Source of the DNA: Tetradesmus obliquus
Taxonomy: Eukaryota; Chlorophyta; Chlorophyceae; Sphaeropleales; Scenedesmaceae
NCBI GenBank assembly: GCA_030272155.1
Contig: CP126193.1
Coordinates: 3,100,001-3,164,000 of the forward strand
Direction of reading: 5' to 3'
DNA: 64,000 nucleotides
Shown here: positions 3,499 through 41,188 of the stretch, piece after piece
Layout of the letters: the number at the start of each line of letters is the position of its first letter
How positions within the stretch are numbered: the stretch's first letter is position 1
Translations under genes and position numbers: made by a program
Notes under the pieces: model-generated
What the model was told of the DNA's origin: nothing
The model's database searches: none
Seen by the model: the letters and a program-made list of their open reading frames with translations, nothing else

Positions 3499-6400
3499 AT
3501 GGACGGCGATGCTGCGCCTGATGGGGCAGGCATAGTGCAGCCAGCTGTGGAGCAGCCTGCTCTGGACGCAGTGATGGAGAGCACGAGTCTGAAACGTTCG
3601 GCACCTGATGATGATGCTGTCGCTGCGGAGCCCGAGGCAAAGCAGCCTCGCCTTGAGGGAGCGGCCGCAGAAGGGTACGCTTCTGCAGAGCATAGTCACT
3701 TGAATCTTTCTCCTTGTTCTTGTGTGATCCGTCACCCAGAGCTTCTGCATTGAAACTTTGCATCAACCTTCATAGCCTGGCTGATCAAGCGCACATGAAT
3801 GGAAGTGTTGTTTGCTGCTTGCTGCTGTCTTGCGCGCATCTCAAGCAGCGATGCCCATGTGATCTCTGTTTGCTTGCAGGACCCCTGCTGGATCAGAGTC
3901 TCAGGGCACTGCGCTAGATGCCCTGCTCCCACCACAGGCCGTGCAGGCAGCACCCGAGCCTGCTGCTCAAGCACAAGCTGAGGCAGCAGCAGCAGCTGCG
4001 GCAGCGCAGGCACAAGCACAGGCAGATGCAGCTGTGGCAGCAGCCGCACAGGCTCAAGCAGCCGCACAGGCTCAAGCAGCAGTGCTTGCTGTAGCCGCAC
4101 AGGCAGAAGCCGCTGCAGCCGCACAGGCACAGGCTCAAGCACAGGCACAGGCCGCAGCAGCTGCGCCTGCAGCAGTGCCTGCGACTGCCGATGCCCAGCA
4201 GCTGCTGAAGCAGGAGGAGCCTGCACAGCCCGCAGCAGCACCAGAGCAGCAGCAGGAGCAGCAGCCTGCCACTGCAGCGCTTGTGCAGCAGCTGGACGCC
4301 TCCGCCGCTGCCGCAGCGCTCGCGGCAGCTGCAGCATCCGCGTTGGGCAGCCAGCCGCAGCCGTCGGCAGAGCAGCAGCACCAGCAGCGCGGCCGCGGCG
4401 CGCCAGGCGGCGGCAGGGGCCGTCCGCGGGAGTCATCCCAAGGTTCCTCTATGTCTGGCCAGGAGCCCAGCGGCGACGCAAGCAAGTTCAAACTACCTGC
4501 AGATGCTGTGCTAAAGCAGGAGATCCCGCTGCAGCGGCGCATGGCGAGCTGCGTGATCGGCATCAAAGGGGCCAGCGTGGCCAAGTTGCGGCGCGAGAGC
4601 GGGGCCAAGATCCACGTGCGGCCTGGGCAGGGCCCTGGGGAGCTGGACCAGGTGGTGGAGGTGGAGGGCAGCATCGAGGCGGTGAGTGGCTGGAAAGGTT
4701 TGTTGGCCTGCGTGCTGTTTTCCTATGCAGCGTTTGAAACCAGGTACACCATACAGAATGAAAAAATTGTCCAAGATCTAGTGTGAGTTGATTGTGGGTC
4801 ATAGCAACATCCTGTGAGCTGCTGCAGGCTCCTACATGAGTATCTGGTGCTACCTGGATTGTCGCCACTTCCATCAACGCTGCATACTCTACTGCTGTGT
4901 TGTAAACACGCCGCACGCCGCACTCTGCGCTACCTCTGCGGGCCCGCAGGTGCTGCTGTGCATCCGCATGATCGACGACCTGCTGCGCAGCGAGGACGCG
5001 AACTACAAGATGGCGCCCAAGCCCGAGGTGACCTGCCGCTTCTACGTGCTGCCGGAGATGATTGGGCCGGCTATCATCGGCAAGGCGGGCACGCACGCCA
5101 AGCACATCCGCGAGCGCACCGGCGTGCGCATCGAGGTCGTGGGTGAGTGGGCTGCTGCTGCTGGGGGATGTGTGTGTGTGGGCAGTGGGGCAAGGGTTGG
5201 GGGCCTGAGGATAGGGTGGGAGGGAGGGTGTGCATGTGTGCGCATCGAGGTCGTGGGTGAGTGGACGCTGCTGCTGGGGCAGGGCAGGGGGATGCACCGT
5301 GAGCATCAAGGGTGTGGGCGAGTTTGCAGGAAATCTCGTGTGTGGTACGTGTGGTATGTGAGGTATTCGAATACCGTATGTGTATTTGCGGAGCCTAGAC
5401 AGCAGCTGCTGCTGGCAGCCATAGCACCTACCTGCCATGCCAAAGTTATGGTGCCAATCATCTTGCCATGCATCACGTGCCCGCCTCCCACAACCTCCCC
5501 TTAACGCCTCTCCCCACACTCCGCTGCTGCTGCCGCTCAACAACCGCAGGCCCCGCTGACGGCGCCAACAGGCAGCAGATCGTGCTGCACGGCACTGCGG
5601 AGCGCACGCGCGAGGCCTACCACCTGCTGCTTGGCAACATCCGCAAGTATGCGCCCAACCTGGCACCAGGAGCAGTGCCCGCACCGCTGCCTTTCCCACA
5701 CAGGCCATCATCAGGCGGAGGCAGCGCCGGCAGGGGAGGCGGCAGCAGGTGCGGCTGGGTCAGGCGAGCAGGCGTGCGTGTGCGGGGTGCGGGGTTGGTG
5801 TGTGTGAGCAGCGAGAGAGGCAGCAGCGGGCTGTTGGATGAGCAGCTCAGCAAGTTGATGCTGTTACTCTTGTGGCTGTACGTTCCTGCGTTGGCGTGGC
5901 AACAGGTGTGGCTCATCATCCAACACGCCATTAAGCTGTGGCTTTGCTGTTCCATGCCATCCATGCGTGACTTGCTGCATGCGCTGCTGTTGCGCTGCTG
6001 CTGCTGCTGCTGCTGCTGCTTCCTGCAGGTACAGTGACAGGCCAGGCCCGCCCCCCAGGGATGGCGGCAGGGGCTACGGCGGAGCCAGGAGCGGCAGCGC
6101 CGGCGCACCACCCCCGCCACCCCCACGCGGTGCAGGCGGCTACAGGTGTGTTTAATATGGAAATTATACACGCAAGGGCATGCATGCAGGCTAGCCACAG
6201 GTTCTAGTACTGCAACCAAACTTCCTGTATGCAACGAGTTGGAATGCTTGAACTTCTTCAGGCATGTGTGCTGAGTGGGTGCCTGCTGGTGTCAGATAGG
6301 TTTTAACTGCAGCGCTATGCCTCTGACTGCGCTGATGTCTTGTTTCTTTGTGCGTCGCGCTGCAGGGGCTATGATGACTATGGAGCCCCACCTGACCCCT

Positions 6401-7377
6401 ACAGGCCACACGACCCCTACGCACGCGCCGCGCCAGCAGCAGCACCCTACGCCACCGCGCAGGCACCCTACAGCACCGCAGCAGACCCCTCGGCGGCGGC
6501 AGCAGCAGCAGCGAGCGCGCAGGGCATGGCAGTGGCAGCGCAGCAGCCGCAGATGATGTACATCTTGCAGGATGGGGTGCTGAAGCCGCTTGCAGTCACA
6601 TACCAGCAGGCAGTACCTGCCGCTGCACCTGGCGCTGCTGCTGCTCAGCTGATGCCTGGCCTTGCCGGGTATGCTGCTGCGCCTGCTGCTGCTGCGCCGA
6701 CATCGACTGGCGGCACGACTGTGCTGTATCAGCAGGCGGGCGCAGCAGGCGGCGCGACGTATGCGTATGCGGCGCCGGCGCAGCAGCAGGGCGCACCCGC
6801 AGCTGGTGCTGATGCGAGCGGTGCTGCGCCATCCTGGATGGGTGCTGTGCAGCAGCTGATGGCTGGGCAGGTTGCTGCTTCGTCTGCGCCGCTGACAGTG
6901 GGCGCGTACCCTGGCGCTGCTGCTGCGACGTACACTACCGCGGTGAGCATGGGTGTGGCTGCAGGGGTGTTGGGATGTGGGCTTGCAAACAGCGAGCAAT
7001 GTGCAGCTGGGGGCGCCGCCACAGTACTGTTCGCAGCTGGTGCTTGACAGCAAGCAGTGCTGCTGCCAGCTGCTGTGTAGTATTGAAAAACTTGCTGAGC
7101 AGAATGGTCACATCAGCGCTGCACAGATTTTGAAAAGTTGTGCTTGCAAGTCTTGGCACAGGGCCCATGTGGCAGCTGCTGCTGCACCGCACTGTTTTGC
7201 CTGGGTGTGTCGTTGACCTTGTGTGTGTTGCTCACCTGCTGCTGCCCTGCTGCTGCCGCCGTGCTGCTGCTGCTGCTGCTGCTGCTGTTGCTGCTGCTGC
7301 AGGCTGCGCAGCCCGCGCAGTACACCGTGCCTGCAGGCACGCAGTATGTGCAGTACGCCAACTACCCGCCACAGTAG
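3499..7377 (+). CDS. Two-KH-domain RNA-binding protein, Ala/Gln-rich
   Basis: Seven exons join in phase: 3499-3674, 3880-4681, 4950-5142, 5550-5748, 6029-6145, 6366-6942, 7303-7377, giving 712 residues. An Ala/Gln-rich region (about 80-250) precedes KH1 (about 268-335, with GIKG at about 286-289). KH2 follows (about 350-420, with IIGKAG near 370). After KH2 come an Arg/Gly/Pro segment and a Tyr/Pro/Ala tail. The GxxG loops place it in the KH type I (PCBP/hnRNP K, plant FLK/PEPPER-like) family, which binds single-stranded RNA in splicing, stability or translation. The RNA target cannot be inferred. Several introns end in CTG runs just before the acceptor. The intron after exon 3 carries a copy of the exon end and donor (separate entry). 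Confidence 0.85.
5126..5278 (+). repeat. Duplicated exon-3 end plus 5' splice site in the KH gene
   Basis: The 25-nt stretch covering the end of exon 3 and its donor (GCGCATCGAGG, TCGTGG, GTGAGTGG in succession) recurs unchanged 114 nt downstream. The true donor is at 5143 and the copy at 5257. A weaker third copy lies near 5300. The 114-nt interval is open in the coding frame. Confidence 0.9.
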
Positions 7378-7496
7378 AGCCCGCTGGTGGTACCGAGACT
7401 GCTCAGCAGGTAGGCTTCACGCGCGCGCCAGCAAACCACCACACTGTGCTTCGTGACAAAGCAGGAAAATGTACAGCAGCAATCATCCCGCCAAGC

Positions 7497-8030
7497 TCAG
7501 CAGTTGAACACCCGCCAGCACAGCATTGTCAGTCTTTCACGGTTGCAATGATACAGTCTGCGGAAAGAACACTGCACATTGACTGCAATAATGCAGAGCA
7601 TGACATAATATTGCTCATCAACAGATGCTGCACACTCTGTTGTACACTCTGTGTTTGCAAGCAGCTGTGGCAGCACACTCAATCACACAGTCAGCAGTCG
7701 TGTACATGGAAGCATCAGTGACTAACACATGGCAGGCAACTTTCTTTGTGTGTAATGCAATGCCAGCAGCTGCGCCCTGCTTGCTGCCACAAACGTACTT
7801 CACCACCTTACATTGTAGGTTGCAACCCTTGACGAGCCCAGTTGCTGTAACTGCAACCAGCTGTTGCGATAGCGGCGCTCGCTGCTCCGGCGGCAGCTGC
7901 TGCTGCAGCGTAAATTGCAACCAGTCCGGCCCTTGGCTGTGAACATCAGGGAGTGCTGTAGGAAGGTGCTGTAAGCGGCGCAGCAGCAAACCATGCGGCA
8001 AGGAACGAGCAGCCAGAACGGAAGGTGCTG
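7497..8030 (-). CDS. Possible two-exon fragment, unidentified
   Basis: An open stretch at about 8030-7815 reads PSVLAARSLPHGLLLRRL, then SQGPDWLQFTLQQQLPPEQR, which looks like genuine coding sequence with a transit-like start. No ATG in frame was found; an acceptor near 8035 would require an upstream exon. A donor (T|GTAAGG) near 7816 could join an exon ending in a stop at 7497 in a compatible phase. No family recognised; it may be spurious. Confidence 0.25.
7751..7755 (+). terminator. TGTAA polyadenylation signal, KH gene
   Basis: TGTAA lies 374 nt after the KH stop codon. This pentamer is the usual green-algal polyadenylation signal. Assignment is by position only. Confidence 0.4.
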
Positions 8031-8422
8031 GGCACGGCTAATAGTTATGAAGACCATGTGCTTGCCAGCACAACATCACAAGTAGCAGTGGGCGGCGTGC
8101 GTGCAAGCCAAGCTCGCACAGCAGTGTGGAGTCAGGCAGCTCTTTCGTAGCAACACAGCAGCAGCGTGTGTGCGGCGGACAAAGGGCAGACACTTTACCA
8201 GCTGGTGCAGGAAATGGTGGCAATGTGTTGCAAGTGTGAGGAGGTGTCCTTGCAACTTCATTGGACGTAGGGCGTAGCCCAAGGAGCTGTACACAGCACA
8301 GCACCCATCAACGTAAACATGTTGCCAGATGTAGAGTCAGCAAAGTACACAGTTTGTGTGTCTTGAGTTGAGTTGAGTTGTGTCAATTCACCTCAGCCAG
8401 TTAGTTGTTGGCAGGACCTCAG

Positions 8423-8491
8423 ATGTGCTCAAGAGTGCAAGGATAACATGTGCTCAAGAGTGCAAGGATAAGATGTGCTCAAGAGTGCCGA
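8423..8491. repeat. 25-bp tandem repeat, nearly three copies
   Basis: Units beginning ATGTGCTCAAGAGTGC occur at 8423, 8448 and 8473. The first two units differ by one base and the third is truncated. Confidence 0.9.
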
Positions 8492-8706
8492 AGGCTTGCT
8501 GAAACCCTAAAAGCCAACGGCATGACCGCGGTCGTACTGATGCAGTGCTCGTTTGGTGTTGACATGTTCATTGTACAGGCTTGTGTCAGAGCGCTGTTTC
8601 TGAATCTATAGTTGGTGTTGGCCTAGAGTGTATCAACGCACGCGCAGCGCTCGCTGCACACTACTCAATGTGTAACAACGGAACAAGACATCGAATGGGC
8701 AAATGG

Positions 8707-9159
8707 TTACAGTGTGCAACATGGCCACGGTCCTGGATGCAGCGCAACAAGCGCAAGCGGGGGCTCACAGGCAGAGGTTGGCTCCTGCACAGTGCAGGAA
8801 CAGCTGTCCATCGTGATGGGGCACACATGATTCCACGCCAAACAAGCATTCACTTTTAGGTGCATGAATTCACGGATGTAGGTGTGTGCACTTGCAAACA
8901 TTACACACCGCAACATCAACAGCGGCATGAGAGACAAATGCGATAAGCCCTACGGCGAAACAACTGATAGCAGCAATCTGTCTGCTCTGGGCGGCAAGGC
9001 GTCGACTGTCGCGGCACTTGCTGCACATCTTGCCATATAGGGCGGCTGCAATTTTTTGAGGATGCGGCTCAGCATGATCCGTCATGTGCTGCGGTTGTGC
9101 AGGGCGACGACAGCGCGGCTGGTGCCTTGCCGGGTAAGGTGGCGCGTCAGGTGATGCGT
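8707..9159 (-). CDS. Possible small one-TM protein
   Basis: From an ATG near 9159 the frame reads MHASPDAPPYPARHQ and then a Cys-containing segment (GKMCSKCRDSRR). A hydrophobic stretch suited to one membrane helix follows (ISCFAVGLIAFVSHAAVDVA). It is either single-exon to about 8870 or spliced in phase 0 at GCG|GTGTGT to an exon ending in TAA at about 8707, where the stop overlaps TGTAA. No family recognised. Confidence 0.28.
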
Positions 9160-10194
9160 GCATGGCAGCACATGTGGTGTACACTGTTGTTCACTGCGCT
9201 ACAATGGTGATACGCGCAGCCAGCTGCATAACAGCAGTGCCACTTGTATGCTGTGCAGTTCTCTGCTTCAACTGTAGTGCCACCATGCTGCAGTGTGAGG
9301 GGTGCTGCATGCTGACCGTGTGCGTTGCCACGCTTGCACGGTGATAGACTGACCGCCTGTGCACCAAAGGCAACCGCTAACAAAACAAGGTGAGGGATTG
9401 TGCGGCACACTTGGAAGTCTGCCTGCAGGTGCGCGGCACATCTTGAAGACTGCATGCAGGTGTGCGGCGCGAACCTTCTTGCGACTACTGGGAGGCTGCG
9501 GCTCAATTCATTGAGGCAATCAGAGCACCAAAGCCACTGGCAGTCCCAAAGCCTCTGCTTGCTGGTACGCCTGTTGGAAGCAGTGCGTGACGGCAGTTGC
9601 TGCGTCAGCAACAGCAACGGAAGGCAGAGAAGGCTGTGGTTGCTGCTTTCTTCAGCATGCTGTGTGGCTGAGCATGCTGCCATACTGCACCAGCAGCTAC
9701 GCAGCTCGATGATCTGCCGTTCAGTTTGCGGAAGCACATGTGCCACCAGTGGTCGATTTTTACCAGGAGTTTTGGCACTGTGGGCAGTGACAGTGCTTGA
9801 CATTATTAGTTTTGCCCTGCCGCATAACGTGAGGCAGCACATACATGATGGCTGTCAGTTGTCCTGCACCGGTGGACAGCGTGGTGTGTTTGGACTGATT
9901 GTTGTTTGTTACATTGTGCCACCGACGGCAGCGCAATGCTGGCTTAGAGTCATGCAGCCTGTGCCTAGCAAGCAAGCTCATCTGTTTTGGTCCACATGAG
10001 CACCATCACTGGCTATTGTATTGTATTGGCTGCACGACCAACCTCTGTGCGGCTGGTGTTGTCTATTGTGTCGTGAAAGCAGCCGTTTCAGTTACTATGG
10101 CGCAGCGCTATGCGTGCACGCGTTTACAGCTGTGTCATCCGTCTAGCCCACTCTAGTGCTATAGGGATGTTGAACTGAGCTGTGGCCACCTAAC

Positions 10195-10835
10195 ATGCTG
10201 GTGTGCTTCAAGATTACATCTACTGCTGTGGCTGACCTGCCTGCTGCTTGCCTGGTGTGCCGCAGGGGCCCTGCAGGGCCGCTTCCTGCCGGCCCTGGGC
10301 CGCTGTCCTCTGGCCTGGCCAACGGCACACTGCAGAGCGCCCTGGTCAAGGTTCCTGCACGCTTCAAGGCCGTGATGATGCACACGAGGTAGGCATGGGA
10401 CAGCTGAGAAGCAGCACGCACTACTGCAACGGGCCTGTGTCACAACCGACGGTCGACAAGTTCACAACTGACAAGCCGATACCCCAGTCATTGAAAGACG
10501 TCACGCAATGGCCTGACATTGCAGTTACTTCAAGCAAGTGAGGCGTTTGCCGTAGTGCTGCATTCCTGCGATGCAGCTGCCCCGTTCTATTGCTGACTGC
10601 ACGGCACTGCCCTGCTGCTGCACTCCGCCATGTCAGGCGCCAGGGGCAGCACCGGCTGCGTGCAGGGCCTGTCATCAGGCGCGTCATAACCTGGGAGGAT
10701 GACAGCCAAGGTGACGCTGATGGGCGGGAGGATGAGGAGGATGCGGATGGGGGTGTGGAGGACGGCGATGACGCTGGCAACGATTCTGACACAACAAGGG
10801 ACACGAGCTCATCCGAAACAGAAGGTGACGATTGA
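10195..10835 (+). CDS. Small protein with acidic C-terminus
   Basis: Two exons join in phase (10195-10388 and 10637-10835), giving 130 residues. Exon 1 contains GPLSSGLANGTLQSALVKVP and a basic segment ending AVMMHTR. Exon 2 continues with RQGQHRLRAGPVIRRVITW and then a tail of about 45 residues dominated by Asp, Glu, Gly and Ser ending in TEGDD. Codon use in the shared part is like the neighbours. The start ATG is uncertain: the acceptor-like CCGCAG at 10260-10265 would allow an upstream exon, so this may be the 3' end of a larger gene. Acidic tails are common in nuclear and chaperone-type proteins, but no function can be assigned. Confidence 0.4.
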
Positions 10836-10956
10836 GGAGGCAAGGCAGAGACAGGAAGGTGGCAGGAAGGCGGCAGGAAGGTGGCGGAAGGGTGATAGGA
10901 AGCTGGCAGGAGGCCTTGCTTTCTGGGAAAAGCGTACCGGGCAGGTCAGGAAGCAT

Positions 10957-11104
10957 GAGTACCACTGCTGGCAGCTCTGCATCGTCTGTGGACGGGCTGG
11001 CACGAACGCTTGCTTTTGCGCTTGCGCTGCCGCTCTTTGCTGCTGTTGTAGCAGCGCTGCTAGCCTGCTGCCGATCGCGGCAGCCGCTGGGGCTCAAAGT
11101 TTGA
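10957..11104 (+). CDS. Short ORF with one predicted membrane segment
   Basis: An ATG at 10957 opens a 48-residue frame: a Ser-rich start, a hydrophobic run (TLAFALALPLFAAVVAALLA), then CCRSRQPLGLKV and stop. It could be a terminal exon of an unresolved gene or chance. It lies immediately after a purine-rich imperfect GGAAGGTGGCA-type repeat (about 10850-10915). Confidence 0.2.
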
Positions 11105-12662: not shown

Positions 12663-13495
12663 TTAGCCGATGACGGCCTTGCTGTGCTCGTCATCCAGGA
12701 AGCGGTACTCGGGCACCTCCAGGTTGTAAGGCGCAGGGCCCCTCCTCACGCGGCCTGAGATGTCGTAGTGCGTGCCGTGGCAGGGGCAGAACCAGCCGTT
12801 GTAGTCGCCCGCGCCCGCGATGGGCACGCAGCCCAGGTGCGTGCACACGCCCACCACCACCAGGTACTGCGCGGAGAGGAAAGGCAGCAGCAGAGCAGAG
12901 GAAGAGGACGTCAGGGCAGTTTGTGAGCAGCAGGGAGCAAGGTGGCGCTATCAAACTAGTGGTGGCGATGTGCGTGCACACGCCCACCACCACCAGGTAC
13001 TGCGCAGGGGAAGACAAGGATACACGACACAGGTGTACAAGGTGAAGGATTGAGGTGACACAGTGCTGCATGCTACACCACGCAGTTGTAACGCAAGCAT
13101 TCACACAACAGCAGCCTGTGGTGAATGCAGCTGAAGGAGGGGGGGAGGGGGAGAGTACGCAGCGATGACCTCAGCCAGGGAGCGCTGCACAGCCAGCACA
13201 GCTGCTGCAGTACTGCGAGTCTGACTGCTGTGTTGCCGTGTGGCAACTAGCCTCTGCTTCTAACTCTGCTGCCACTGCTATTGCCACTGCTGTTACTGCA
13301 CCTCCTGTTGCACCTCCTGCACCAGCATGCCTGCCACACATATGCCAACGCACCCTGAACAGCACACCTTGGGGTCAATCACGCTGCTGCTGCTGCTGCA
13401 CCTCTTGCAGGCCATCTGGCACAAGCACATCTGGTGCAAGCACGCCGCCACCACCCCCGCACCCTACACCTGAGCTGCGCCTTGGGGTCGATCAC

Positions 13496-13529
<34 letters not shown>

Positions 13530-15411
13530 CACCTCTTGCAGCGCATCTGGCACAAGCCCATTCAACGCAAGCACGCCGCCACCACCCCCGCACCCCTACA
13601 CCAGCGCTGCACCTTGGGGTCGATCACACTGATGCTGCTGTTACTGCTGCCGCCACACCCCGAGCCCCACCACCAGGCGCGCACCTTGGGGTCGATCACG
13701 CGCTCCGCATCCGTCTGCGGGTCCCTGAAGCCGGTCACGTCGGTGTTCTCCGCCTCGCTGATCTCGTCTGCGGTGCGGTGGCGGATGAACACGGGCTTGC
13801 CGCGCCACTTGACGGTGACGGTGTTGCCCTCCTCGATGCCGCTCAGGTCCACCTCCAGGCTGGCCATGGCCAGCACGTCAGCAGCGGCCTGCGCGGCACG
13901 GGCAGGAACAAGAGGTGTGTGTGTTCAGAGCGTGTTTTGAGGCATGTCATTGCCGTTGTATACCTCTGACGGCTGTGTCCAGCAGCGGCCTGCGGCTGAG
14001 CTATACACATTGATGATAAGCGTCACTGGCAGCAAAGGCAAGCATGCCATAGGCACACTGTAGGGGTGGACGCTCCAAGTAATAGTCGCATGAGCTGCGC
14101 AGGGTTGCTCTGCTGCTACCTGGACCCAGCGCCTTGCAGTGCCGCCTGGCCAATGCCCACACCACCAGGCGCAACACTGGCAATGGACCTACGCCACCAA
14201 CTCTAATACGCTGTTCTACAGTTTCAGGCAGGCGAGCGGCAGCACCGCTAGAGTCTTGGCATGCCGCATGCTCCTGCAAGCTGGTGCTGTCCTCCTTTGC
14301 AGCTTCTGCTGTGTCCTTGCTGCATATAGCTGCCCTCACTGCTGTTGTCCTGCGCGCAATTGCTGCCTGTGATACTGCCTTGCATGCTGTGTGTCTTGCT
14401 TCCTTGCAAGCCGCATTGCTGTTCTTCTCCTGCGCAGCCTTGGCCTTTGACAGCCTTCGATGGCCATGTCGCCTCCCTGCACGCTGCATTTGCTGCTGCT
14501 CCCACGAACTGCTGCAGGTAGCTGCTTCCAATGCTTTCTGCCATCACTGCTGCTGGTTCCTACTGCCCAGCTGCTGGTGCATGCTGCCACTGCTGCTACT
14601 GCCGGCTATGCTGCTGCTGAATACTGCTGCCATAGCAGGTGCTCACGCTCATGGACAGAATGAACTTGAGTGCCAGCAGGCGTGCTGCTGTTGCGTAGAA
14701 GAAGCGGCCACCAGCCTGCACTAGCGTTGCAGGCGACTTGTTGTCCAAGCCAGGCGCGTAGCGCTTGTGGTTGCTCTCGTCATAGCTGCAGCAGCACACA
14801 TGAAGCAGCAGGAGCAGCAGCTGCAGTGGAGTGCCCACACTGGCAGGCTACGGCTGCTCCAAGCCCCCTGCATGTGCTGATCACATGGTTGACGGCAACG
14901 CTGAGCTCTGATCGCAGCTGCTTGGTGCTCGGCACTGCATTTTAGGACTGCAAGGGCAACCCTCACAGCAAGCCCAACCAAGCCACTGGCTGCAATTGGC
15001 TGCGTCAAACTGGTATATAGCACAAGAAAGTCTTTACTTGCTGTCCTGCGTGCCTGCTGTGTGCACTCACGAGATGTTATGGTTTGGCGAGCGAGCCAGC
15101 TTGTCGCATGGTGACAGCCCTGAGGGCTTCACTGCTGCAACTTCTGACGCATAGCCTGCATGTGCGGGAGGGCCAGCAGCTCAGCATGTTGCAAGATCGG
15201 CCCAGATCACTGCTGTCCTGCTGGTGCAGCGCTGCAAACTATACGCACTTCTAAGAAAGCTACTAAATGCTCCAAAGCCGCCAGATGTGCTGGTTGAGGC
15301 CTCAGCTGTGGCTGACACAAGCTGCGAGCAGCTGGACGCGATGGGGCAAAGCACTCCAGGGGCATTCAGCAGGCGTGGCACAAGGCCCGAGAAGGCCTGG
15401 CGGAGAGCCAT
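12663..15411 (-). CDS. RIP1: Mitochondrial Rieske iron-sulfur protein of cytochrome bc1 complex
   Basis: Five exons join in phase: 15411-15249, 15155-15071, 14785-14647, 13888-13685, 12866-12663, giving 264 residues. The protein is the 2Fe-2S subunit of respiratory complex III, which passes electrons from ubiquinol to cytochrome c1 in the inner mitochondrial membrane. The N-terminus ([20 protein letters not shown]) suits a mitochondrial presequence. [12 protein letters not shown] and the hydrophobic [17 protein letters not shown] mark the matrix stretch and single anchor. Cluster ligands are visible in CTHLGC (C205, H207) and CPCHG (C224, H227), with the disulfide cysteines C210 and C226. The end, [19 protein letters not shown], is typical of plant and algal forms. 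The intron between exons 4 and 5 is expanded with copies of both of its own splice-site regions (separate entries). Confidence 0.96.
12837..13005 (-). repeat. Duplicated exon-5 start plus 3' splice site in the Rieske gene
   Basis: A 36-nt stretch covering the first codons of exon 5 and its CGCAG acceptor (12837-12872) recurs identically at 12970-13005. The decoy acceptor would start an exon at 12999, 133 nt early, which shifts the frame. Confidence 0.92.
13361..13702 (-). repeat. Tandem copies of exon-4 end plus 5' splice site in the Rieske gene
   Basis: The exon-4 end (GTGATCGACCCCAAG) followed by its donor occurs four times: the real junction at 13685/13684 and intronic copies with exon-end equivalents at 13613, 13481 and 13368. 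Copies at 13613 and 13368 keep GT; the one at 13481 has GC. Two copies sit inside a unit of about 131 nt that also repeats CAAGCACGCCGCCACC and CCTCTTGCAG. Confidence 0.92.
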
Positions 15412-17240: not shown

Positions 17241-17278
<38 letters not shown>

Positions 17279-18261: not shown

Positions 18262-18295
<34 letters not shown>

Positions 18296-19818: not shown

Positions 19819-19854
<36 letters not shown>

Positions 19855-23691: not shown

Positions 23692-23743
<52 letters not shown>

Positions 23744-26302: not shown

Positions 26303-27315
26303 TCACAGGCTAGGCGCAGGCTTGGCCATGGCCTCGTCAAACAGGCCCAGCGGGAAGTGCCCCAGCAGCTCGCCCTGGCCCAGCTGCAGCAGCACGCCAC
26401 GGTCACGGCCCTGGTACAGCGAGATGTAGCACAGCTGTAGCACACACAGCAGCGGCGGCGGCAGTAGCGGCGGCGGCAGCAGTGCTGTCAGCCATGCTGA
26501 CACCAGGCAGACATGCGGCACCAGGCACTTGTAACACGGTGCTGGGCATTGCCCAGGGCAACTGCAGAACAAAAGCTGTTCAGATACCCTGCTGCTGATG
26601 GCCACCTTGACTGCAAGTTGATGCAGCGCTGGCGTATTCAAGGCAGTGTGTATGGCATGCTCAAGGTAACACACCAGTCATTAAGGCATGCTGCTCAAGT
26701 TGCCAGCATTGCTGTCGTGCACGCATGCTATTCAAGGTGTTGCGTACAAAACAAAGGCGGGCGTGCTGCAGGGCTGCTAATGGTGCGGCAAGACACTGCA
26801 CCTGCGTCCGCGAGTTGTACTTGAGGTAGACGGCTCCCTGCACGGCTGCTATGCTGGCTGCACCTTGCACCTGCACAGCAGCAGCAGCAGCAGCAGCAGC
26901 CAAGCCTCAACACGTGCGGCAGTACAAACCAGCCTCAGAACAATCTAACTTAGCTTTGAAAGCAAGCATGCCAGCAGCAGCTGCTGCTGCAACAGCTGCC
27001 GCCATCGCCTTGCAGGACACCATTCATTGCTTCCTGGCCCCACCCCAACCCCCTCACATGCTGGCAGGCTCATTGGTCAGAGAGAAAACAGACAGAAAAC
27101 ACAACTTGGTCAAAGCATGGATGGAGCATTGGGAGGTTCTGCAAACTCACCCTGTTCTCAGGCTGCAGATAAGGCAGCCCCAGCGCCTCGCACAAGCTGC
27201 TGCTGCTGCTGCTGCCATCACCTTGCAGGAAACCACAGATTGCTTCCTCCCCGAACCCCAGCCCCACTCACCCTGTTCTCAGGCTGCAGGTAGGGCAGCC
27301 CCAGCACTCGCACAA

Positions 27316-27361
<46 letters not shown>

Positions 27362-28204
27362 TCGCTTCACACGGAACCAACCATTGCTTCCTCTCCCCAC
27401 CACCACCACTCACCCTGTTCTCGGGCTGCAGGTAGGGCAGCCCCAGCGCCTCGCACCAGTCGCGCAGCGCACGCACGCCCAGCCTGCTGTCACTGGCCAC
27501 CACGCCCATCAGCACATCAGGCGGCGGCTCGCAGGCCCAGGCCTCCTCTACACAGGGCTGGCTGTACACCAGCTGCGGGGCAGGGGCGTGCGGGTGACAA
27601 TCATGATGTGTGAGAAGGGCACTGGCAGGGGTGTGCGGCGCAGTGAGTTTGAGAGGTGTGTGTCACAGCCGTAAGCCGGATACGTGCGATGTGACAAGGA
27701 TGCCAAAGAATAGGTTGCCGCAGATTTGCCAAGCGGTGTTTGGGGTTGCTGGCAGGCAGGTCCTGGGGCCGCCCAATGTGTGTACTCTCAGGGCTGTCTG
27801 CTCCTGCTTCCTTCAAGCTACAGCATCAAGCACCATGGATGCTAAGCTGACTGCGCGTTGTCTGTTGCAAGGCCCTGCTGCTGGCGGGCGCTGCATGCTG
27901 CTGCTTGAGCGCAGCTATATGGCCATGCTGCGTGTGCTGCTGCTGCTCTCAACAGGCAGTGGATCTGACAAGCTGACAGCTGCTACACCTACTTCACTGA
28001 AACACATAACAGACATAACAGAAAGCCCCTTACCCAACCACTACGGCAGCAGTCCCAACTCACCATTAGTGCATCCCTCAGCTGTGCTCTGCCGCTGGCA
28101 CTGCCCAGGTACTGCTGCGCTGTCCCTTTGATCTCCATGCGGGTGAACTCCTTTAGCAACTTCCAGGCGACTAGTACCTCTGGCGGAGTTGCTGCTGCTA
28201 CGGC

Positions 28205-28237
<33 letters not shown>

Positions 28238-30109: not shown

Positions 30110-30599
30110 AGCTGAGCTCCTGCTGCAGCTGCAGCTGCTGTGTGCTTTGTCAGGGTTGGCCTGGTGGCACAGAGTCACGAGGGCACGTCACTGCGTAAAT
30201 AAATGATCGGTTTGGCGCTCTTTTATATTTAAGGCCTACTTTTCCTGCCACAACAGGCGTCCGAGTGTAAAAGCATAAAGCCAAGGCCACTGTGCTGCGC
30301 ACCTTGAAAGCGCGAAAACTTCGAGGCCACCGCAATACTGCTGTAGATGATTTACCTTTTTATTAGCTGAACTCAAATAAGTGAGATCAAGTGTGGTAGG
30401 ATGAGAAGTCCGACAACATCTGCCGTGTATCCAGCCGAGGGGTGCTTTCTTCTTGCGACACGTGTGCTTGAGTACACGGAGCACTGACAAACGAACGATC
30501 GCAGCACAAACTATCAGAGCGAACACACAGCTGTGTGAAGCAACAGCAACAATTTTCCCGCTAGCTTTGCGCGCCATCGAGTTATCAGCAACCTCAGGC
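30110..30599. promoter_or_regulatory. Divergent promoter region of two secreted-protein genes
   Basis: The 490 nt between the two ATGs is less GC-rich than its surroundings and contains the minus-strand TATA box above. No equally clear TATA box was found for the plus-strand gene. Confidence 0.5.
30220..30227 (-). promoter_or_regulatory. TATA box of the 29367-30109 gene
   Basis: The minus strand reads TTAAATATAAAAGAGCG here, 111 nt upstream of the start codon. Confidence 0.6.
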
Positions 30600-32691: not shown

Positions 32692-35600
32692 AGGCGGCAG
32701 CAGCGTGGACCCTCTGTCCAAGGTTGTCAGCAGCTGCCTATTAAAGTATGTGCGCAGGACCCAGCCGATGTGTATCAACACGTGTACACTGTGCTGTGTT
32801 ACGACAGTGTGCTGACAGGTGAAAGGTGGTCAGGCAGGGGATGTTGGTGTTCTTGCCGCATGTAGAGCTTGTACAGTGTGCGTCAGCCAGCACTCTGCTC
32901 ATCACATCTGAGCTCAGAGAATCGGATGAGCTGTGTGTTAACATGGAGTTTTCAGAGTTTTGTGTGTGCATCTATGCCAGCTGTGTGCAAGTGTGCTGGC
33001 TAACAGCTGACTGAATTAGTTGTGGCAACAGCAATGCATGCAACGCCAGCCGCCTGACGGGTGGAGGAATTTTGAGTAGGGTTATCTTGAAGATGGGTTG
33101 GTTGGTCGCTGCCAGCTGGCAGTGCCAGCTTGTTTCGGCAGGCGCAGCAGCCTGCTGTTGCACGATACGTGGACTTGGCATTTTGGCGAACGTTCCGAAC
33201 GCGTTCGGAACGCACGATACGTTACGCTTAGTGGCGAACGCTGCTTGGGAACGCCAGCTTTGCCTCTGCGTCATCTGCAAACCCCCAGACCCTTAAATAA
33301 ACTATCTATGTACATAAGTAATAACATTATCTATCCACTAAGGTCCCAGGACGTCGCAATTTTGAAACAGTTCAAGTGCCGGTGTTCGGGGTTCTTATCC
33401 GGCACACCAAGTGGGTGGATTCGCGGCATGCAGAAGGTCACCAACTGCAAAGTCGCTAATTTATAAGTCTCAAATCTATGTGTGATTTACAGTAACTTAC
33501 TATACATGATATGGCTGTGAGTATGCGTGTATTGAGTGCGGGATCAATAAGCTAACAGCAGCAAAACGCGCCAAAGTCAGCAATCGTTCCGAACGCGTTT
33601 CTGCCTCTCGGCCTAAAAAGTCCGAACGTTCGGAACGCGTTCGGAACGCACGATACGAAACGCGAACGAAACGTTGCGTGCAACCCTGCTGGCAGCAGGG
33701 GTGTGATGTTCAGGGTTTCGTCGTGGCTTTAGGTGGCTACCGAGCTTTGGTGAGTCGCAGTACACCCTCTGTGTACCTCTCACTTCAAAGCTACAGCTGT
33801 GTGGAAGAACCGGCTGGAACCACAAAACATCATAACATGTCATTACTCACATTGTGTAATCAACACACCCCCAAAACTTGACCGGCACTGCTGCGCCGCT
33901 GCAAGGGTCAACATACATAAGTCCCAACAATCTTAAGTGGCCACAGCAGTTACCCAGCATACCATTTGCAGCCTGCAGCGATCAATTGGCAGCCAGTGCT
34001 GCAGATCATCGCAGCATGGTGAGAAACAGCAAGTCAAATGCCGCAGCAGTCATGCAGGTCTGGGGCAGCACTGGCAATGCCCACATCATGCGGTCTGCAG
34101 TCACGACTGAGCAGTCCAAGCAGATTGATTTGAAACCCATGCCAGGTGGCTGACAGACAGCTCTGTATGCAAACAACCATTCACCTGAAAGTCTAGCATG
34201 CGGCCAGCCTCTGCAGCACTGGTTGCCAGGCGTCGACAGCACTGCGGTGTCAGACACAGACAGAGACACCCTTGACCCAGCATCCGTGGCAGCCACATTC
34301 ATCCGCATCGTGTGCGCAATGATGTGCAACATGTCCATGTCCGTGTCACGCAATCCAGCCTGCCAAACCACCAAGTCGTAGATGGCACCCACAGACCCGC
34401 CTGGCAGGGGATCTGCTGCTTGCCGCCCCCAGCCAATTCACCAGGGCTGCACCATGACTGATGAGTCGAAGTGCACCTGATGCACCTGTAAAAGCGCAGT
34501 GCAGTACCAGCGTGCACGCCCAACATAGCAGGACTGCCCAAGTTTGCAGCTTGTGGCGGCTCTTCTGCTCCTGTCAATAGAAGTGCACCACTTTGTTGGA
34601 ACCAGTCAGACCAAGAAAAAGTAAAAGCAGGACACGCCAGGAAACACAGCGCCGAGGTAGCGCAGCCCTCAGTGCAACTGTTGTGTGCTCTCCTCTATCT
34701 GCATGATACACACACATGAAGTACATATCCCAGCACACACTCATAACCCTATATGCTGTACTCGCACACACACTCACACACGCACGTAATTGCTGATTGA
34801 TTATCACTACAGCCATGCAAGCGCATGGCTGGAGGGGACGGCGGACCTGCAGCAGGCGCACCGTGCTGAGCATACACGTATGCCCGCACATAGGCTGACC
34901 CCCTTGGTGCGAATGAAAGACCACACTTGCGAGTGAAGCGCCCAGGCAATACCTTTGGGCACTCTGCCAATCTCACCCATGCTGCTGCTGCTGCTGCTGC
35001 ATTGCAGCAGTTGCTCTTTATGTAACATATGAGATGTACTGAACACCATGAGAGGCCACTCTCTTTGTCTTCGCCACACAAGAAACCCCGCCAGTGTTGC
35101 ACACGTATGCCACGGCCAGGCGCACACTCAGCATGCATGACAAGCTGCGTTTGCAGCGCGGCAAGCTGCGCACACCCTTCAAAACAACCTTCCCATGGCC
35201 TTCCAAAACACTGAGTCAAATCGTCCTACATAGACAGCCAAGCCTTTGTTGCCTATATTGCGGACAACAAAAGCATCCATACATGCATAGGCATGCATGC
35301 ACGCATGGCACTGAGACAAGTACATTGTGACAGTGCCGGCACTCCACCTTGAAACAGCTGTGGCAGTGCAGAACCGACAGACAGCAAGAGTCGTATGCTT
35401 GCTACTGCGATTGCCAGCACCAAGGGGAAAGAACGTGCGCTGCCTGGTTTACAAAAAAGAATACAAGCACAAGCTGCAGGATATTTTGCGTATGGTACGC
35501 ACACAGCACTGCACTGGCAGAAGAAGTCAACCTATGCACACACACTGACAAGCTGCTGCTGTCGTAGATGAAAAAGCATGTCCCAACTTCCTCTCAACTG

Positions 35601-36253
35601 TATCGGTACACACTGATGTATCCAACCATTCATAGACGCTCTGCATGCCGACAGCAAAGGGTGCTGGCTGGGCTCAACTAACCTTGTAAAAGCGTGTGAA
35701 GAGCACTAGTGGTATAAAAGTGACTGCGGCTGCATGTGCTGCATATGCAGGGCACCGTACACGGCTGCAGCACATGCTGCCTGCTGAAAAGCGCCTGTCT
35801 CAGAATGTCTGAGAGACCATGCTGTGTCAACGTCACAACTCAACGCAAGCAACACAATCATGTGCTTGCGCATCACTTGCAGGCACTGGTGAGCCAGCAC
35901 ATGGCACAGCGCACTGCTGCTTGCAGGAACTGCGGGCATGCAGCAATCAAAGCTTCAGACATATCCCAGTATCGCGCCCCTCAGGCAGACAACAAGCCCA
36001 GGAATCTAGATCCAAAATTGTGCAATCTGCACTGCCCGCCGCTGCATGTCGCATCGTGCTGCGGCCATGCATCCAGCTGCAGGCGCACAGCAGACAGCAG
36101 CCAGGGTGGCCATCCACAACATAGCAACATGAGATGATTAAGGGCTTCACTGGCTGCTGTTGTGCGCTGTTGATACTGTTGTACACACCGGACACTGGCC
36201 CAGTCTATCTGGAATGGAGTAAGGCTGCCAGGTTGACGTGGCATCAGGCTGCT
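32692..36253. other. Gene-poor interval with palindromic repeats
   Basis: CTG/CAG content falls and no exon chain is convincing. A minus-strand frame at about 34392-34190 (MGAIYDLVVWQAGLRDTDMD) is mildly coding-like but could not be joined to anything. Two related palindrome-bearing repeats occur at 33191-33221 and 33585-33657. Confidence 0.4.
33191..33657. repeat. Repeats bounding a 0.45-kb AT-richer segment, possible MITE
   Basis: CGTTCCGAACGCGTTCGGAA, completed by CG, is a perfect 22-nt palindrome at 33191-33212. The 23 nt at 33199-33221 recur in direct orientation at 33635-33657, and a partial copy lies at 33585-33600. The segment between is relatively AT-rich. Because the motif is palindromic, it can serve as both direct and inverted termini. 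Confidence 0.6.
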
Positions 36254-36740
36254 TCAGTTGGTCCTCATGTTGTCACGCAGCTGAGACCAGGCATTCTCAT
36301 GCCAGTTGCAAATCAGCCGATGGTCTGCAGCAGAGGTCAGAGAGTCAAACAGGGTGTGAGCAGCTGTCCATCAGCAAGTGCGAACAGGCTTGCTCTGCCA
36401 AGGTGGGTGGGTAGGTGCTGGTGCAAGCTAACTCGGATGCCATTTGTACGAAATCGCAGCCCAGGTCAATTGCACCAGCAGGCAACTCACCAGACTCTAC
36501 TTCGTCCATCATCAACACATTCTGAGGCAGTGCAGGCCTCATGCGCAGGCTCTGCTCGGCTTGCTGTTTGCCCCTCAGCTGCTTAATTCTGTCCTGAAGC
36601 ACGCCCATGCTAGGCTCAGGGGCACCGGGGGACCCAAACTTGTTGGAGTTAACCGCGCGAGGCACAATTGAAGCGGCTCTGCAGTTACCTCTGTGCTGCA
36701 GCTGGCGCGAGGATGAAGGTTGGATCCTGGCAGCGAACAT
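36254..36740 (-). CDS. 106-residue plastid-type protein, family unknown
   Basis: Exon 1 (36740-36491) and a 71-nt exon 2 (36324-36254) join in phase through a GTGAGT donor and CTGCAG acceptor. The first 40 residues (MFAARIQPSSSRQLQHRGNC and onward) look like a chloroplast transit peptide: basic, Ser/Ala-rich, no acids. The mature part is hydrophilic and helical (VLQDRIKQLRGKQQAEQSLR), then PQNVLMMDEVES, and exon 2 adds DHRLICNWHENAWSQLRDNM before RTN and stop. The phase match and the aromatic, non-repetitive exon-2 peptide argue that the gene is real. I do not recognise it. Confidence 0.58.
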
Positions 36741-38455
36741 CGTGTGGCGTGCAAATCAGGGATTTGAAACAACGGATTGACAGCTGAACTGCTGAGAGCA
36801 GCAGTGTACTCTTTCTGATGACGGCGGTGCAATTGCCAGGTCAGCTGCCCAAACACCTAACACATCCTCCCGTCTGGCTGCTTCACCATAGAAGGCCCCC
36901 AAACCCGTAAACGCCCATCGAAAGCTCGATCGCTTGTTTTCAATGTTTCTGCAGTTTCGTCGCGCCGTGTGCCTGCTAGGCAGACCGTGCAGCGCAACTG
37001 CCTACATTCAAAAGCCTTGCCAGCTGTGGTCAACACAACATCAGTGGGCAGCCTACATATGCTGCCACAACTTGTAGATCTTAACTGCTGTAATCAAGCA
37101 AGTTCTTACCAGATGATGGCTTCAGACAGCCAGCATCTTGGCGGAGCATCCAAGGCTCATCCAAACAGAGAAGCACATGAACTTGAACCGAATGTACCGA
37201 AAGAAGCGCTGCACGGCACGCCACGATGCAAAAAAGCACCTTGACGACGTGTCGTCGACCCCATGACCCCATCACAACATCATCAATAGAAATCTGCCAG
37301 CTCAGGCCTCACATCAAGCTTCGTGGAGACCTCGATGCGCCATCTGCAGATGCCAGCTGGCACAAAGATGGAACTATCCAACTCATCAAGCGCCCTTGAG
37401 CTTGATTTACAGATGCAGCCTGACGTGCAGTCACGTGAAGGCCTTCATTGTGCTGCCTGGAACCTGTCACGCCATCAGCCAGCTCCTGGCACCCAAACCC
37501 AGCATGCCTTGCAGTGGTCAAACCCAACAGTTGACTTTCACAGTGTTAGCTACCAAATGCTCCCTGCCAAATCCAGAAGCATGGCGACGCAACTCCTCAT
37601 CAGTGCAGTACACGTGTACGCTGCTTCACCCTCCAGCAATGCTCTGGCTTGGCACAAACGTTCACCCGTGCGCCAGCAAAATGAAGCGCATGGGTCGCAG
37701 CAGCACCTCCTGCTGTGTATGCACCAAGGTCACCCAGCAAGATGGCGGATGCTGGCTGGCTCTGCTACTCAACGCATTGCAACGCAAGGGCACATCCAGG
37801 GTAGGAATCGTGTATACAATCGGCAAGCACCACTGTTGGCAGAAGCGCTGCATATGCACATCCTGACAATGAGTGGCTGCTGTTGTAGTTAGCGCAAGCG
37901 GCATGTAACAAAGCACAAGGTCCGACATGGGAGTGCCAGCACACAACAGATGGTCCGTGTGAGCCACAAGCTTGGCATGTGGCAGAAGCTGCGACAACCC
38001 ACCACGCTATGACATGCACCCAAGCAGGTTTGTCAATCGAAGGTTATATCAACCCAATGCACAAATACAAGACGCACACTACGGCAACAATCGCCCCGTT
38101 AGCTAAAGCACTCGTCAACTCAAGACTGGTTGTGGCCGGGGATATCCGCAGGCCAGCACAACCTGTCAGCAGCGCATACGGCTTCAGCCGCGCACCCCAC
38201 ACCAGTAAAGCAGGCATCGCAGCCAGCCCACGCAACGCATGCAGATGCTGTGTGTGACAAAGCAGTCATAATGCTGCCGCAGCTTGCAGGACCGCTCAAG
38301 GATTAGGCAGGCACCGTGCTGGTTGCAACTCCAGCACAGTTGGCAGCAGCCCTCATCCTGGCTCGCTCGTAGAGTGTGCAACCAGCTGAGTCATTGGGCT
38401 TGCTTCACCAACACAACATGCAGCAGTGAGCATTGTTTTGTCTGGACGTCACGCA
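36741..38455. other. Intergenic; possible decayed coding sequence
   Basis: Plus-strand stretches read coding-like but are broken by stops: about 37155-37255 (HPRLIQTEKHMNLNRMYRKK) and 37396-37866 (with PAMLWLGTNVHPCASKMKR). They could be remnants of a mobile element or chance; no domain was identified. Confidence 0.3.
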
Positions 38456-38460
38456 TTACA
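38456..38460 (-). terminator. TGTAA polyadenylation signal, bZIP gene
   Basis: TTACA on the + strand lies 59 nt after the bZIP stop on the gene strand. Confidence 0.4.
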
Positions 38461-38518
38461 CCACCAAACTACTGGCAGCAGCTTTGGGACACGATGCAGC
38501 CAAGCTGCGCTGCACGTG

Positions 38519-41188
38519 TCACGGGCACGCCCGCTTTGCAGGCCGCTCCGAAACAGGGCCGCCATTCGCTGCTGCTGCTGCCTCTGGCTGACCAGCAGCA
38601 GGCATGCAGCCAGCAGCTGCAGCGCCTGCAGACGCCTCTTTCATGCCGCCAGCGCCCTGCTGGAGTGTTGCCAGCAGTGCTGACACAGCAGTGAGTGTGC
38701 CAGCCTTGTTGTTGCTAGACTGTGGGTCGACTGCTTTTGCCGAACGTTGTAGCTGCTGCTGCTGCTGATCTGGATCCTCCACCTGCTGCTGCTGCTGGTG
38801 CTGCTGCGTCTTGCTGCTTGTTGCCATCAGCGCAGCAGTTAGCAGCGACAGCATACCAGGTGCAAGGTCGCCTGCTTTATGCTGCTCCTGAGCTGTTACG
38901 TAGTGGTCGGACTCGGGGCCTGCTGCTGCTGCTGCTGCTATTGCTGGCTGACTTGCTGCAGCCGCTGCATCCACTGCCAGTGTGGATCTTCTGCCGCTGC
39001 TGCTCTTGTCACCGTCATTAGCAGCAGCAGCTGCACCCGCAACTGCCCTGCTGTCCCCGATGAGGCCACTCAACAGCGCTGCAACAGCCGAATCAGTGAT
39101 CGATCCAGGCACCCCAGGCGCCGCCGGCACAGCTGCTGCTACTGCTGCTGCGGCTGCTGCAGCTGCTGCTGCGGCAGCGGCGGGCTGTGCTGGGCTGTCT
39201 GTGGAGCTGCCTCGCCTCGATGCCAGCAGCGCAGCTAATGCATCCACAGCGCCTGCTGCGTCACCACCAAAGCTTGGCAGGCTCAGGCCTGCACTGTCAC
39301 TAAGTGCAGCAGCAGCTGCTGCTGCTGCTGCCTGCTCAGGCATGGACTGCATGTGCTGCCCCTGCTGCATGCTGCTGAGCTGCGGCAGAGCCAGGCTGAG
39401 TGAGGCTGGCAGCTGCAAGCTGCTGAGGGCGGCGCCAGGCTGGCCAATGGAAGGCCTGCCGCTGCCACCTGCTGCATGTGCTACCTGCAGCTGCCATTCG
39501 AGCTCGTTCACGCGGGCTTGCAGCATCCCGACCTGCAGCCAAGCAGTGCAAGCAGCGGCCAGCAGCAGAAGCAGCAGCAGCAGCTCATGCTAGCACCCTC
39601 GGTTGCTGGGTTCGTGGCAACAGTGCAAGGAACTGCTGGAGACAGGCCGCAAGGCATGCACATAACGCATGAGGCAGCCAGGTGGGGCGCACTTGAGACA
39701 CAAGCAGCAGCAGACGGCCGCAAGCACGGCAGCGCCATGCATTCCTAAGCTAACACAACCCATGCGGCTTTTCTCCTGCAAGCACGCTGTGTTTGTTTCT
39801 GCACAATGTCGCAACTGCTCCCCAGCATAAGTGTAAACAGTCACACTACACACCTGCTGAACAGCAAACACGCCAAACGCCCTGCACCTGCCTGTGCAGC
39901 GCAGCCCGCTCCGCCACCAGCTCAAAAGCAACTACCTGTATCTTACACATGTGACACGGCAAGCAGGCCCTGCCTCCCACCTGGCTGTGCAGCGCAGCCA
40001 GCTCCGCCCGCAGCCCCGCGTTCTGCTCCTCCAGCGCCTCCGTGTGCTGCTGCCGCCGCAGCCTGCTGCGCGCCGCGCTCTCCCGGTTCTTGATCATGCG
40101 CTTCTCCTGCTTGGCCAGCCGGTCCTCGCTCACCTCAGCCAGCGCCTGAGCAGCAGCGGCAGCAGCAGCAGCTTAGGCAATGGCGGCGACAGCAGCCGCA
40201 TTCATTGCAATGCTACACCAGATGCAGCCAGTGCAGCCGTACTGACTGCAATGCATATCAAATGCATTGCTGCCACATCATAGAAGAAAGGGGTTGAGCT
40301 GCCACATCATACTGCTGCAGGTTGTGCTGCTTCACTGCATCCTGCGGAAGCTCAATCCACTCCGTGTTTCACACTGCTGCAGCTGCTCTGCTGCGATACA
40401 CCACAGACCCACCTGCAGCTTCTGCATCGTGTCCGTGTTCTTTCGCCGCGCCCGCTGCCCTTGGTTGCTTGACGTGCCACCCACTGCTGCCAGCGCCGTT
40501 GAGGTGCCCCCGCGGCTGGTAGCTGCTGCTGCGGCTGCTGCTGCTGCTGAGACGGGCGACTCGGTATATCCAGAGTCTTCATAATCAGCAGCATCAGGAG
40601 CTGGCGGCGCAGAGCGGGCGGAGTACTGCTGCTCTGCAGGGGCTGCAGCTGCTGCTGCTGCTGTAGCTGCTGCCGCTGCCTGCTGCTGCTGGTGGAGGTG
40701 CCGGCCAAGCAGTGATGTCAGGAGGGCTAGCTCCGCATGCACATCCTGGGCAGGGGATGTTGATGCTGCATTTGGCGCTGCTGTTGCTGCTGCTGTCGAT
40801 ATGTTGGCGAACCGGCTGCACCCCTGCATATGCAGCACACACCTTACTGAGGTTCGGAGCGGGCACTTGCAATAAGCATTTAGTAAGTCTATGTAGGACG
40901 CCGTCACGCACCTGTTCCGCTGCTGCCATGCTGTCCTCACAGCTGTTGAAGTCCTTTCCCTGTACCTGCCAGCAGCAGCATCAGAAGCAGCACATGCGTC
41001 AGGTACGGCTACCGCGTTGCCCTTTCAACCCGACTCCGACACAACTTATCAGGGTGTATGTGCTCTATTATCACCTTATTGTCTGACTTGGTCCCTCCGG
41101 CACTGTTCTGTCCTACTTGGGCCACTGCCACGAAAGCATCCTCAGTGCCGGGAGGCCCAAACGCATTGATCAAAGAACCCTTTTGCAT
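38519..41188 (-). CDS. bZIP transcription factor, ABF/ABI5-like basic region
   Basis: Five exons join in phase 0: 41188-41075, 40965-40912, 40823-40413, 40145-39981, 39532-38519, giving 585 residues. The basic region reads KRMIKNRESAARSRLRRQQ with the invariant N213 and R221 (N-x7-R). It is followed by a zipper with Leu at 231, 238, 245, 252 and 259. KRMIKNRESAARSR is characteristic of plant group A (ABF/ABI5/AREB) factors, which bind ACGT-core elements as dimers; an ABA link in an alga is not implied. The N-terminal 190 residues and the 270 after the zipper are Ala/Gln/Ser-rich activation-type sequence; the end is RPAKRACP. The intron splits the zipper between L245 and L252 and carries a copy of the exon end and donor. 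Confidence 0.9.
39886..40020 (-). repeat. Duplicated exon-4 end plus 5' splice site in the bZIP gene
   Basis: The exon-4 end encoding RAELAALHSQ plus GT has a diverged copy encoding VAERAALHRQ plus GT 93 nt downstream (exon-end equivalents 39981 and 39888). CTGCGCTGCACAG is identical in both. The interval is open in frame. Confidence 0.85.

Follow-up and report, generated by a model that had tools for sequence, protein, structure and literature searches.

The window analyzed here is a 64,000-nucleotide stretch of the genome of the green alga Tetradesmus obliquus (C3:3100001-3164000). It contains four genes, confirmed by Pfam as those of KH, Rieske, DUF1824 and bZIP proteins, each of which carries in one intron local copies of the adjoining exon edge together with its splice site. 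Copies of the exon end and its donor had been reported for these genes in a preliminary description based on the letters of the window, and all four cases were found again in the sequence. The features concerned are as follows, with spacings given in nucleotides (nt).

4950..5142, plus strand: KH-domain exon with the copied 3' end (start from the gene model; Pfam); its donor GTGAGTGG begins at 5143
5238..5264, plus strand: KH copy 1, exon tail and donor, 27 of 27 nt identical, spacing 114
5299..5322, plus strand: KH copy 2, decayed, 19 of 24 nt identical (5 differences), donor GT lost
13685..13888, minus strand: Rieske exon with its presumed functional donor GT at 13684-13683 (model, Pfam)
13613..13627, minus strand: Rieske tail copy 1, spacing 72, GT kept
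13481..13497, minus strand: Rieske tail copy 2, spacing 204, donor GC instead of GT
13368..13384, minus strand: Rieske tail copy 3, spacing 317, GT kept
12970..13005, minus strand: Rieske acceptor-side copy, GCGCAG and 30 nt of exon head, spacing 133
12663..12866, minus strand: Rieske exon (VCTHLGC...) with its presumed functional acceptor just upstream, the AG ending at 12867 (model, Pfam)
27414..27572, minus strand: DUF1824 exon with its presumed functional donor GTGAGT from 27413 (model, Pfam)
27272..27305, minus strand: DUF1824 tail copy 1, spacing 142, 34 exon nt, GTGAGT kept
27151..27193, minus strand: DUF1824 tail copy 2, spacing 263, 43 exon nt, GTGAGT kept
39981..40145, minus strand: bZIP exon with its presumed functional donor from 39980 (model, Pfam)
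39888..39915, minus strand: bZIP tail copy, single, spacing 93, 2 differences in 28 exon nt, GT kept

The identical 27 nt of the KH gene consist of 19 exon nt followed by GTGAGTGG and occupy positions 5124-5150 and 5238-5264. In the Rieske gene the exon tail, which encodes VIDPK, ends at 13685 and recurs with its donor at all three spacings listed. The same intron also harbors a copy of its opposite edge that had gone unlisted in the preliminary description: acceptor and exon head match exactly over 36 nt (12837-12872 vs 12970-13005), the copy being situated 133 nt upstream of the real one. The DUF1824 exon tail with GTGAGT is present three times. As originally stated, the nearest decoy donor lies at a multiple of three in the KH (114), Rieske (72) and bZIP (93) genes; the DUF1824 spacings (142 and 263) are not divisible by three. 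The statement that a single intron per gene is affected holds for these four genes but fails elsewhere, as most introns are affected, by our reading, in a ClpP-like gene, a kinase gene and the gene for proteasome subunit RPT3.

The survey covered three further regions, chosen by round coordinates ahead of inspection, namely region A (100 kb of contig C1), region B (100 kb of C2) and region D (60 kb of C5), which together with the window (W) amount to 324 kb on four contigs, or 0.3% of the genome (104,662,953 bases in 17 contigs). Genes were modeled with a both-strand hidden Markov model (HMM) gene finder trained on the same sequence, which yielded 44 models with 518 introns; homology backs the key models, those of a Clp protease, a protein kinase, COX15, a protein with the formamidopyrimidine-DNA glycosylase H2TH domain and RPT3. 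Copies at model splice junctions were detected with a strict test requiring 24 of 30 matching nt at most 600 nt away (W, A and B), and with a gapped test, applied to all four regions, whose cut-off was set just over the 99.5th percentile of 1724 swapped controls, i.e. queries moved to the junctions of other genes.

The gapped test finds an intron-side copy of the exon edge at 127 of the 896 informative model junctions. Whereas the preliminary description had singled out donors as the target, acceptors are affected at a similar rate (64/436 vs 63/460). The junctions with a copy number 7/136 in W, 43/267 in A, 23/313 in B and 54/180 in D, which makes the starting window the poorest of the four regions; the KH case is missing from its count because the gene model took the KH copy for the exon end. 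The exon side holds no additional copy at 108 of the 127 junctions. As donor and acceptor entries may share one duplicated stretch, the 127 are not all independent events. The strict test recovered copies at 49 of 400 donors and 42 of 400 acceptors, with none in 1089 swapped donors and 1027 swapped acceptors (0/2116 in all). Of the informative 24-nt windows, those that match another stretch 40-500 nt away at 20 or more positions make up 0.7% in W, 6.4% in A, 1.4% in B and 8.4% in D; after dinucleotide shuffling of W, A and B the fraction was 0.0000. The matches are also clustered by gene, with at least one in 24 of the 44 models, a clustering that exceeds all 1000 permutations. Copies are commoner at splice junctions than elsewhere in introns, their unit borders are centered on the junction (see below), and all four sampled regions are affected, in line with the widespread process originally suggested. 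The pattern exists and goes further than the preliminary description had seen.

The copies are concentrated at exon borders. Measured in 24-nt windows with at least 20 matches, repeat coverage is 7.1% (donors) and 6.6% (acceptors) in the 40 exon nt next to the splice site, 1.1% and 3.3% on the respective sides at 60-95 nt inside exons, and 0.6% and 1.0% at intron positions +15 to +50, before going up again to 3.1-5.6% at +60 to +250, where the copies lie; far intergenic coverage is 0.18%. Repeat events with a shift of 40-300 nt involve an exon and something else in 150 cases, exon and exon in 30, intron only in 34 and intergenic DNA in 4, on a base of 99.8 kb of exon, 160.7 kb of intron and 63.5 kb of intergenic sequence. 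Tandem Repeats Finder, at periods of at least 50, gave 30 rows that were merged by eye into 20 arrays; one row (A 66705-67129), labeled as intron throughout, was counted with the kinase array of which it is the continuation. Sixteen of these arrays include an exon border, among them two that the model reads mostly as in-frame exon (A 67955 and A 85290) and one with only 14 exon nt (D 41329). The other four are wholly or mostly exonic, with main periods (120, 69, 75/150 and 72/144) that are multiples of three, and none of the 20 is, after merging, confined to intron or intergenic DNA. Uniform placement would lead one to expect 36% border-spanning cases among the tolerated arrays, giving P(16/16) = 8e-8, or about 6e-7 by our own arithmetic if 14 arrays are counted in place of 16. 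The scarcity of copies in intergenic DNA and in intron interiors therefore fits poorly with uniform neutral duplication.

The copies are direct, local and derived from the same gene, as in internal tandem duplication. Their spacing has a median of 126.5 nt, with 127 of 166 values falling within 100-160, and shows no in-frame bias (48/166 are multiples of three). In 45 families with an exon of at least 130 nt and a spacing of at most 175 nt, the junction divides the unit into an exon part with a median of 55 nt and a remainder of 66 nt (gapped measure), and the borders are non-uniform about the junction (Kolmogorov-Smirnov p 0.001 gapped, 9e-7 ungapped). Exon parts exceeding 0.7 of the unit account for 7% of the 57 observed, as against 33% expected. 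The short end of the exon parts is censored, since detection needs about 20 exon nt; this censoring does not explain the deficit of long ones, and undetected indels could have shortened some of them. Homology extends over at least 90% of the tandem unit in 35 of 102 families and is not fully recognizable in the other 67, in many of which the exon part alone can be made out. Among the families with whole-unit homology are near-perfect arrays: that of the ClpP-like gene has a unit of 118 nt, that of the kinase gene one of 183 nt, and one in region B has 215 nt.

Within the copies, 36 of the 38 indel events have a length not divisible by three (under an alignment scoring that favors short gaps), an in-frame stop is present in 7 of 92 exon-copy pairs, which are not independent of one another, and the splice dinucleotide is retained as GT in 74 of 88 donor copies and as AG in 65 of 78 acceptor copies. 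The frameshifts and occasional stops argue against a function in isoforms, and together with the spacings they run counter to the earlier proposal that the copies seed in-frame alternative products. Intron parts are significantly similar in 47 of 105 nearest pairs. Intron homology extends over half the length of the intron part in 34 of 101 pairs. In these, codon positions 1, 2 and 3 differ by 4.4, 5.4 and 14.7%, respectively, and the introns by 14.0%; gap openings number 5.9 per 100 columns in the intron and 0.58 per 100 bases in the exon. Counts of differences by codon position are 35/34/152 for the nearest copies in W, A and B, and 115/98/214 in a looser gapped set from all four regions. 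At third positions the copy differs in 34-36% of cases where the exon has A/T and in 8-9% at non-CpG G/C, as expected if the copies keep older GC-rich states while the exons drift. Exon and copy also differ at 7-25% of CpG sites vs 5-9% of other C/G sites (W, A, B and D), perhaps through methylation-driven mutation. On the whole the copies largely behave as decaying DNA, yet the exon part is better kept, or the intron part less related, than plain duplication predicts; exchange between diverged alleles would account for both.

As splice sites, the inner members of a series are weaker than the outer ones, both for donors (median 7.2 vs 8.9 bits, p 0.001) and for acceptors (8.0 vs 9.5 bits, p 0.002). 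The inner site is within one bit of the outer, or better, in 31 of 52 donors and 28 of 56 acceptors, and 33 of 52 nearest donor copies lie over the 25th percentile of model donors. Profiles of DUF1824, Clp and COX15 align in one stretch once the copies are left out, and the best RPT3 alignment to the solved chain 8amz_K (one alignment shown) likewise leaves out the copy-encoded stretches. For one copy to end up in a product that continues without interruption from the upstream coding part, splicing would have to begin at the first donor; the corresponding argument at the other end of the intron calls for the last acceptor. The spliceosome apparently passes over the copies and uses these outermost sites.

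Genes read closely show several variants of the pattern. In the RPT3 gene (C5:3038798-3045344) an exon head has four upstream copies and the exon tail MELLNQMDGFDQSVNVK has two downstream; a noncoding short satellite of ~22 nt lies between model exons 1 and 2 (C5:3039900-3040070). In the ClpP-like gene the last coding part and the 3' flank are repeated past the stop codon (C1:1022442-1023000), which indicates that introns are not the only place where the process acts. Region A also has a few copies of entire exons, near 82.7-82.96 kb and 91.7-92.0 kb. The phytochelatin synthase gene, examined because of a splicing paper, also holds many local repeats: its locus (C14 near 1985900) has 12 direct-repeat families of at least 28 nt, one of them a CAG tract, and part 174-210 of the profile is found at C14:1985632-1985742, with part 178-205 found again at 1985876-1985959, corresponding to repeat family D4. 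For the phytochelatin synthase of the sister species S. acutus, that paper describes transcripts retaining introns 4 and 5 and another that skips exon 2 (PMC12899622). Elsewhere in the window, CGAACGTTCCGAACG-type motifs recur at a distance of 436 nt (33187-33660), possibly marking a transposon end, and a 33-nt in-frame repeat within an exon on the minus strand (49968-50060, YPTYGTGSAEA) is an ordinary protein repeat.

The explanation we favor, with a probability of about 0.6, is recurrent tandem duplication spanning the junctions at exon edges, the copies being spliced away and left to decay. Local segments of mostly 100-160 bp straddling exon-intron borders would be duplicated time and again, and an extra copy would be tolerated because the outermost sites stay in use, after which it would remain in the intron and decay. 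The most likely cause of the edge preference would be a repair or recombination step anchored in exon sequence and running off into the intron, candidate steps being break repair with template switching and exchange between diverged homologues. Several points weigh against this explanation. The gene models are predictions from sequence, and some copies were called as exons. Exons are richer in GC (0.63) than introns (0.55) and intergenic DNA (0.54), so that an effect of GC on duplication may contribute. When neutral duplication of the donor type was simulated under four settings, the intron part could still be recognized in 92-97% of the pairs with up to 7% exon difference, as against 24 of 44 such nearest pairs observed; the simulation gives a third-codon share of 0.42-0.43, as against 0.50 for the nearest copies, rising with rank to 0.71 for farther ones, and 1.2-2.1 exon gaps per 100 nt, as against 0.61. 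This mismatch suggests that the exon part is preserved or refreshed, or that the intron part was different from birth. A general age gradient is also absent, the nearest copy being less diverged in 19 of 40 families and more diverged in 15.

The same simulation bears on the plainest alternative, in which neutral tandem duplication occurs everywhere, exonic cases are selected away and the constrained exon half keeps the junction cases recognizable for longer. Overall there are 205 synonymous, 213 nonsynonymous and 4 stop differences, which by our own estimate is near the expectation for a free copy set against a constrained exon, and the partial loss of GT and AG and the weaker scores of the copied sites are the decay that this account calls for. 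However, the simulation fails to match the data, intron-only and intergenic events are few beside those joining an exon to something else (34 and 4 vs 150, the arrays behaving likewise), and the unit borders are centered on the junction, which leaves neutral duplication unlikely. A specific form of the favored explanation, tentative and on balance doubtful, holds that diverged homologous chromosomes pair during exchange or repair only in exons, where alone they are similar enough, and that synthesis runs into non-matching intron and is joined locally, so that exon edge and intron end in a copy are both allelic. This would account for the edge preference, the symmetry of donors and acceptors, the third-codon bias of the nearest copies and the unrelated intron flanks beside nearly identical exon parts. 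It is also in keeping with reports on related strains: Scenedesmus sp. NREL 46B-D3 is described as probably diploid, its alleles being separate (PMC7955037), the S. obliquus DOE0152z assembly is twice the size of that of UTEX393 (PMC5552973), and UTEX 3031 is reported to be diploid with two close PCS alleles (PMC12899622). On the other side, the frameshifts and first- and second-position changes imply that much decay came later, whole units that are nearly identical, such as the 118-nt ClpP array, can be explained with no allele involved, and the analysis rests on one haplotype.

The probable heterozygous diploidy of these relatives, along with the third-codon-biased differences, could also point to an assembly artefact in which two haplotypes are strung together at exon borders. 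We hold this to be quite improbable, given that up to five versions exist per junction (the exon's own included), that in the kinase gene tail copies lie at intron 5' ends and head copies at 3' ends, which by eye is not the order of a concatenation, and that the copies contain frameshifts and occur in all four regions on four contigs. The selected alternative donors or isoforms of the preliminary description fare worse still and are very improbable: many copies do keep good sites, as seen in the percentile comparison of nearest donor copies, and intron 4 and 5 retention is described (PMC12899622) for a gene that is rich in local repeats here, but the spacings lack in-frame bias, frameshifts and stops are present, the inner sites are weaker than the outer and, in our own reading, most copies seem to carry one splice site only. 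Least credible of all, to the point of being nearly negligible, is exon copying mediated by RNA or cDNA; similarity limited to the exon with sharp ends at splice sites would suit it, but the copies bear GT or AG and often intron sequence, and spliced exon-exon copies turned up in 1 of 328 tests, the lone match (40/40) adjoining its own junction.

Some further ideas were considered and set aside. Coding constraint on the copies was prompted by families with codon-position differences of 0/0/9 and 0/0/8; the overall counts and the frameshifts favor decay plus exon or allelic change. A 'conveyor belt', in which copies lie the closer to the exon the younger they are, was suggested by one ClpP intron and is not general across families. 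Trinucleotide repeats as a trigger were rejected in that CTG/CAG tracts next to the junction are not significantly enriched (Fisher p 0.30 for donors, 0.74 for acceptors).

Internal duplication of genes is reportedly ubiquitous in eukaryotes and is said to be connected with intron creation (Gao and Lynch 2009). Intragenic duplication is common to both cases; the copies here hold only part of an exon and a single splice site, and their units vary little in size. Vaughn and Bennetzen (2014) reportedly treated small tandem duplications in rice in terms of break repair. A potato RdRp gene contains a tandem duplication across an intron-exon boundary (PMC4974935), which resembles the present cases in being a direct tandem copy that crosses the border and carries splicing signals along. 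The potato gene is a single case with a new spliced intron, whereas here ~14% of testable junctions at both intron ends are involved, and the extra copies appear mostly to remain inside an existing intron. Small tandem duplications have been ascribed to the repair of nearby breaks (PMC8355091, excerpted text); their units are short and in tandem, as here, but in that excerpt they have no tie to exon-intron borders and the word 'intron' is not mentioned. Introner elements likewise add intron sequence with splice sites, but insert in many genes (PMC9860276, as excerpted), whereas the present copies are local: one ClpP exon tail compared with the 104.66 Mb gave 5 matches among the best candidates, all local. 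As a class the copies also differ from mutually exclusive tandem exons, in that nearly all of their indels shift the frame (the 36/38 above) and they are, by eye, single-sided. Our literature search, with most subscription papers outside its reach, returned no report of exon-edge copying in green algae.

These copies provide a large natural experiment on the choice that the spliceosome makes between near-identical sites. They further suggest one way in which introns may grow at exon borders, and a mutational process whose liking for exon edges calls for an explanation. They also serve as a warning to annotators, as gene finders readily call such copies as extra exons, just as the HMM did here. 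More speculatively, and with rather less confidence than in the duplications themselves, the introns of this lineage might grow inward from both ends through a mutational process linked to exon edges, in the boldest version through failed exchange between diverged homologues able to pair only in exons. If such inward growth is true, each intron would be an archive of how its flanking exon edges once looked, or look in another allele, and the spliceosome of this alga would routinely have to pass near-identical decoy sites.

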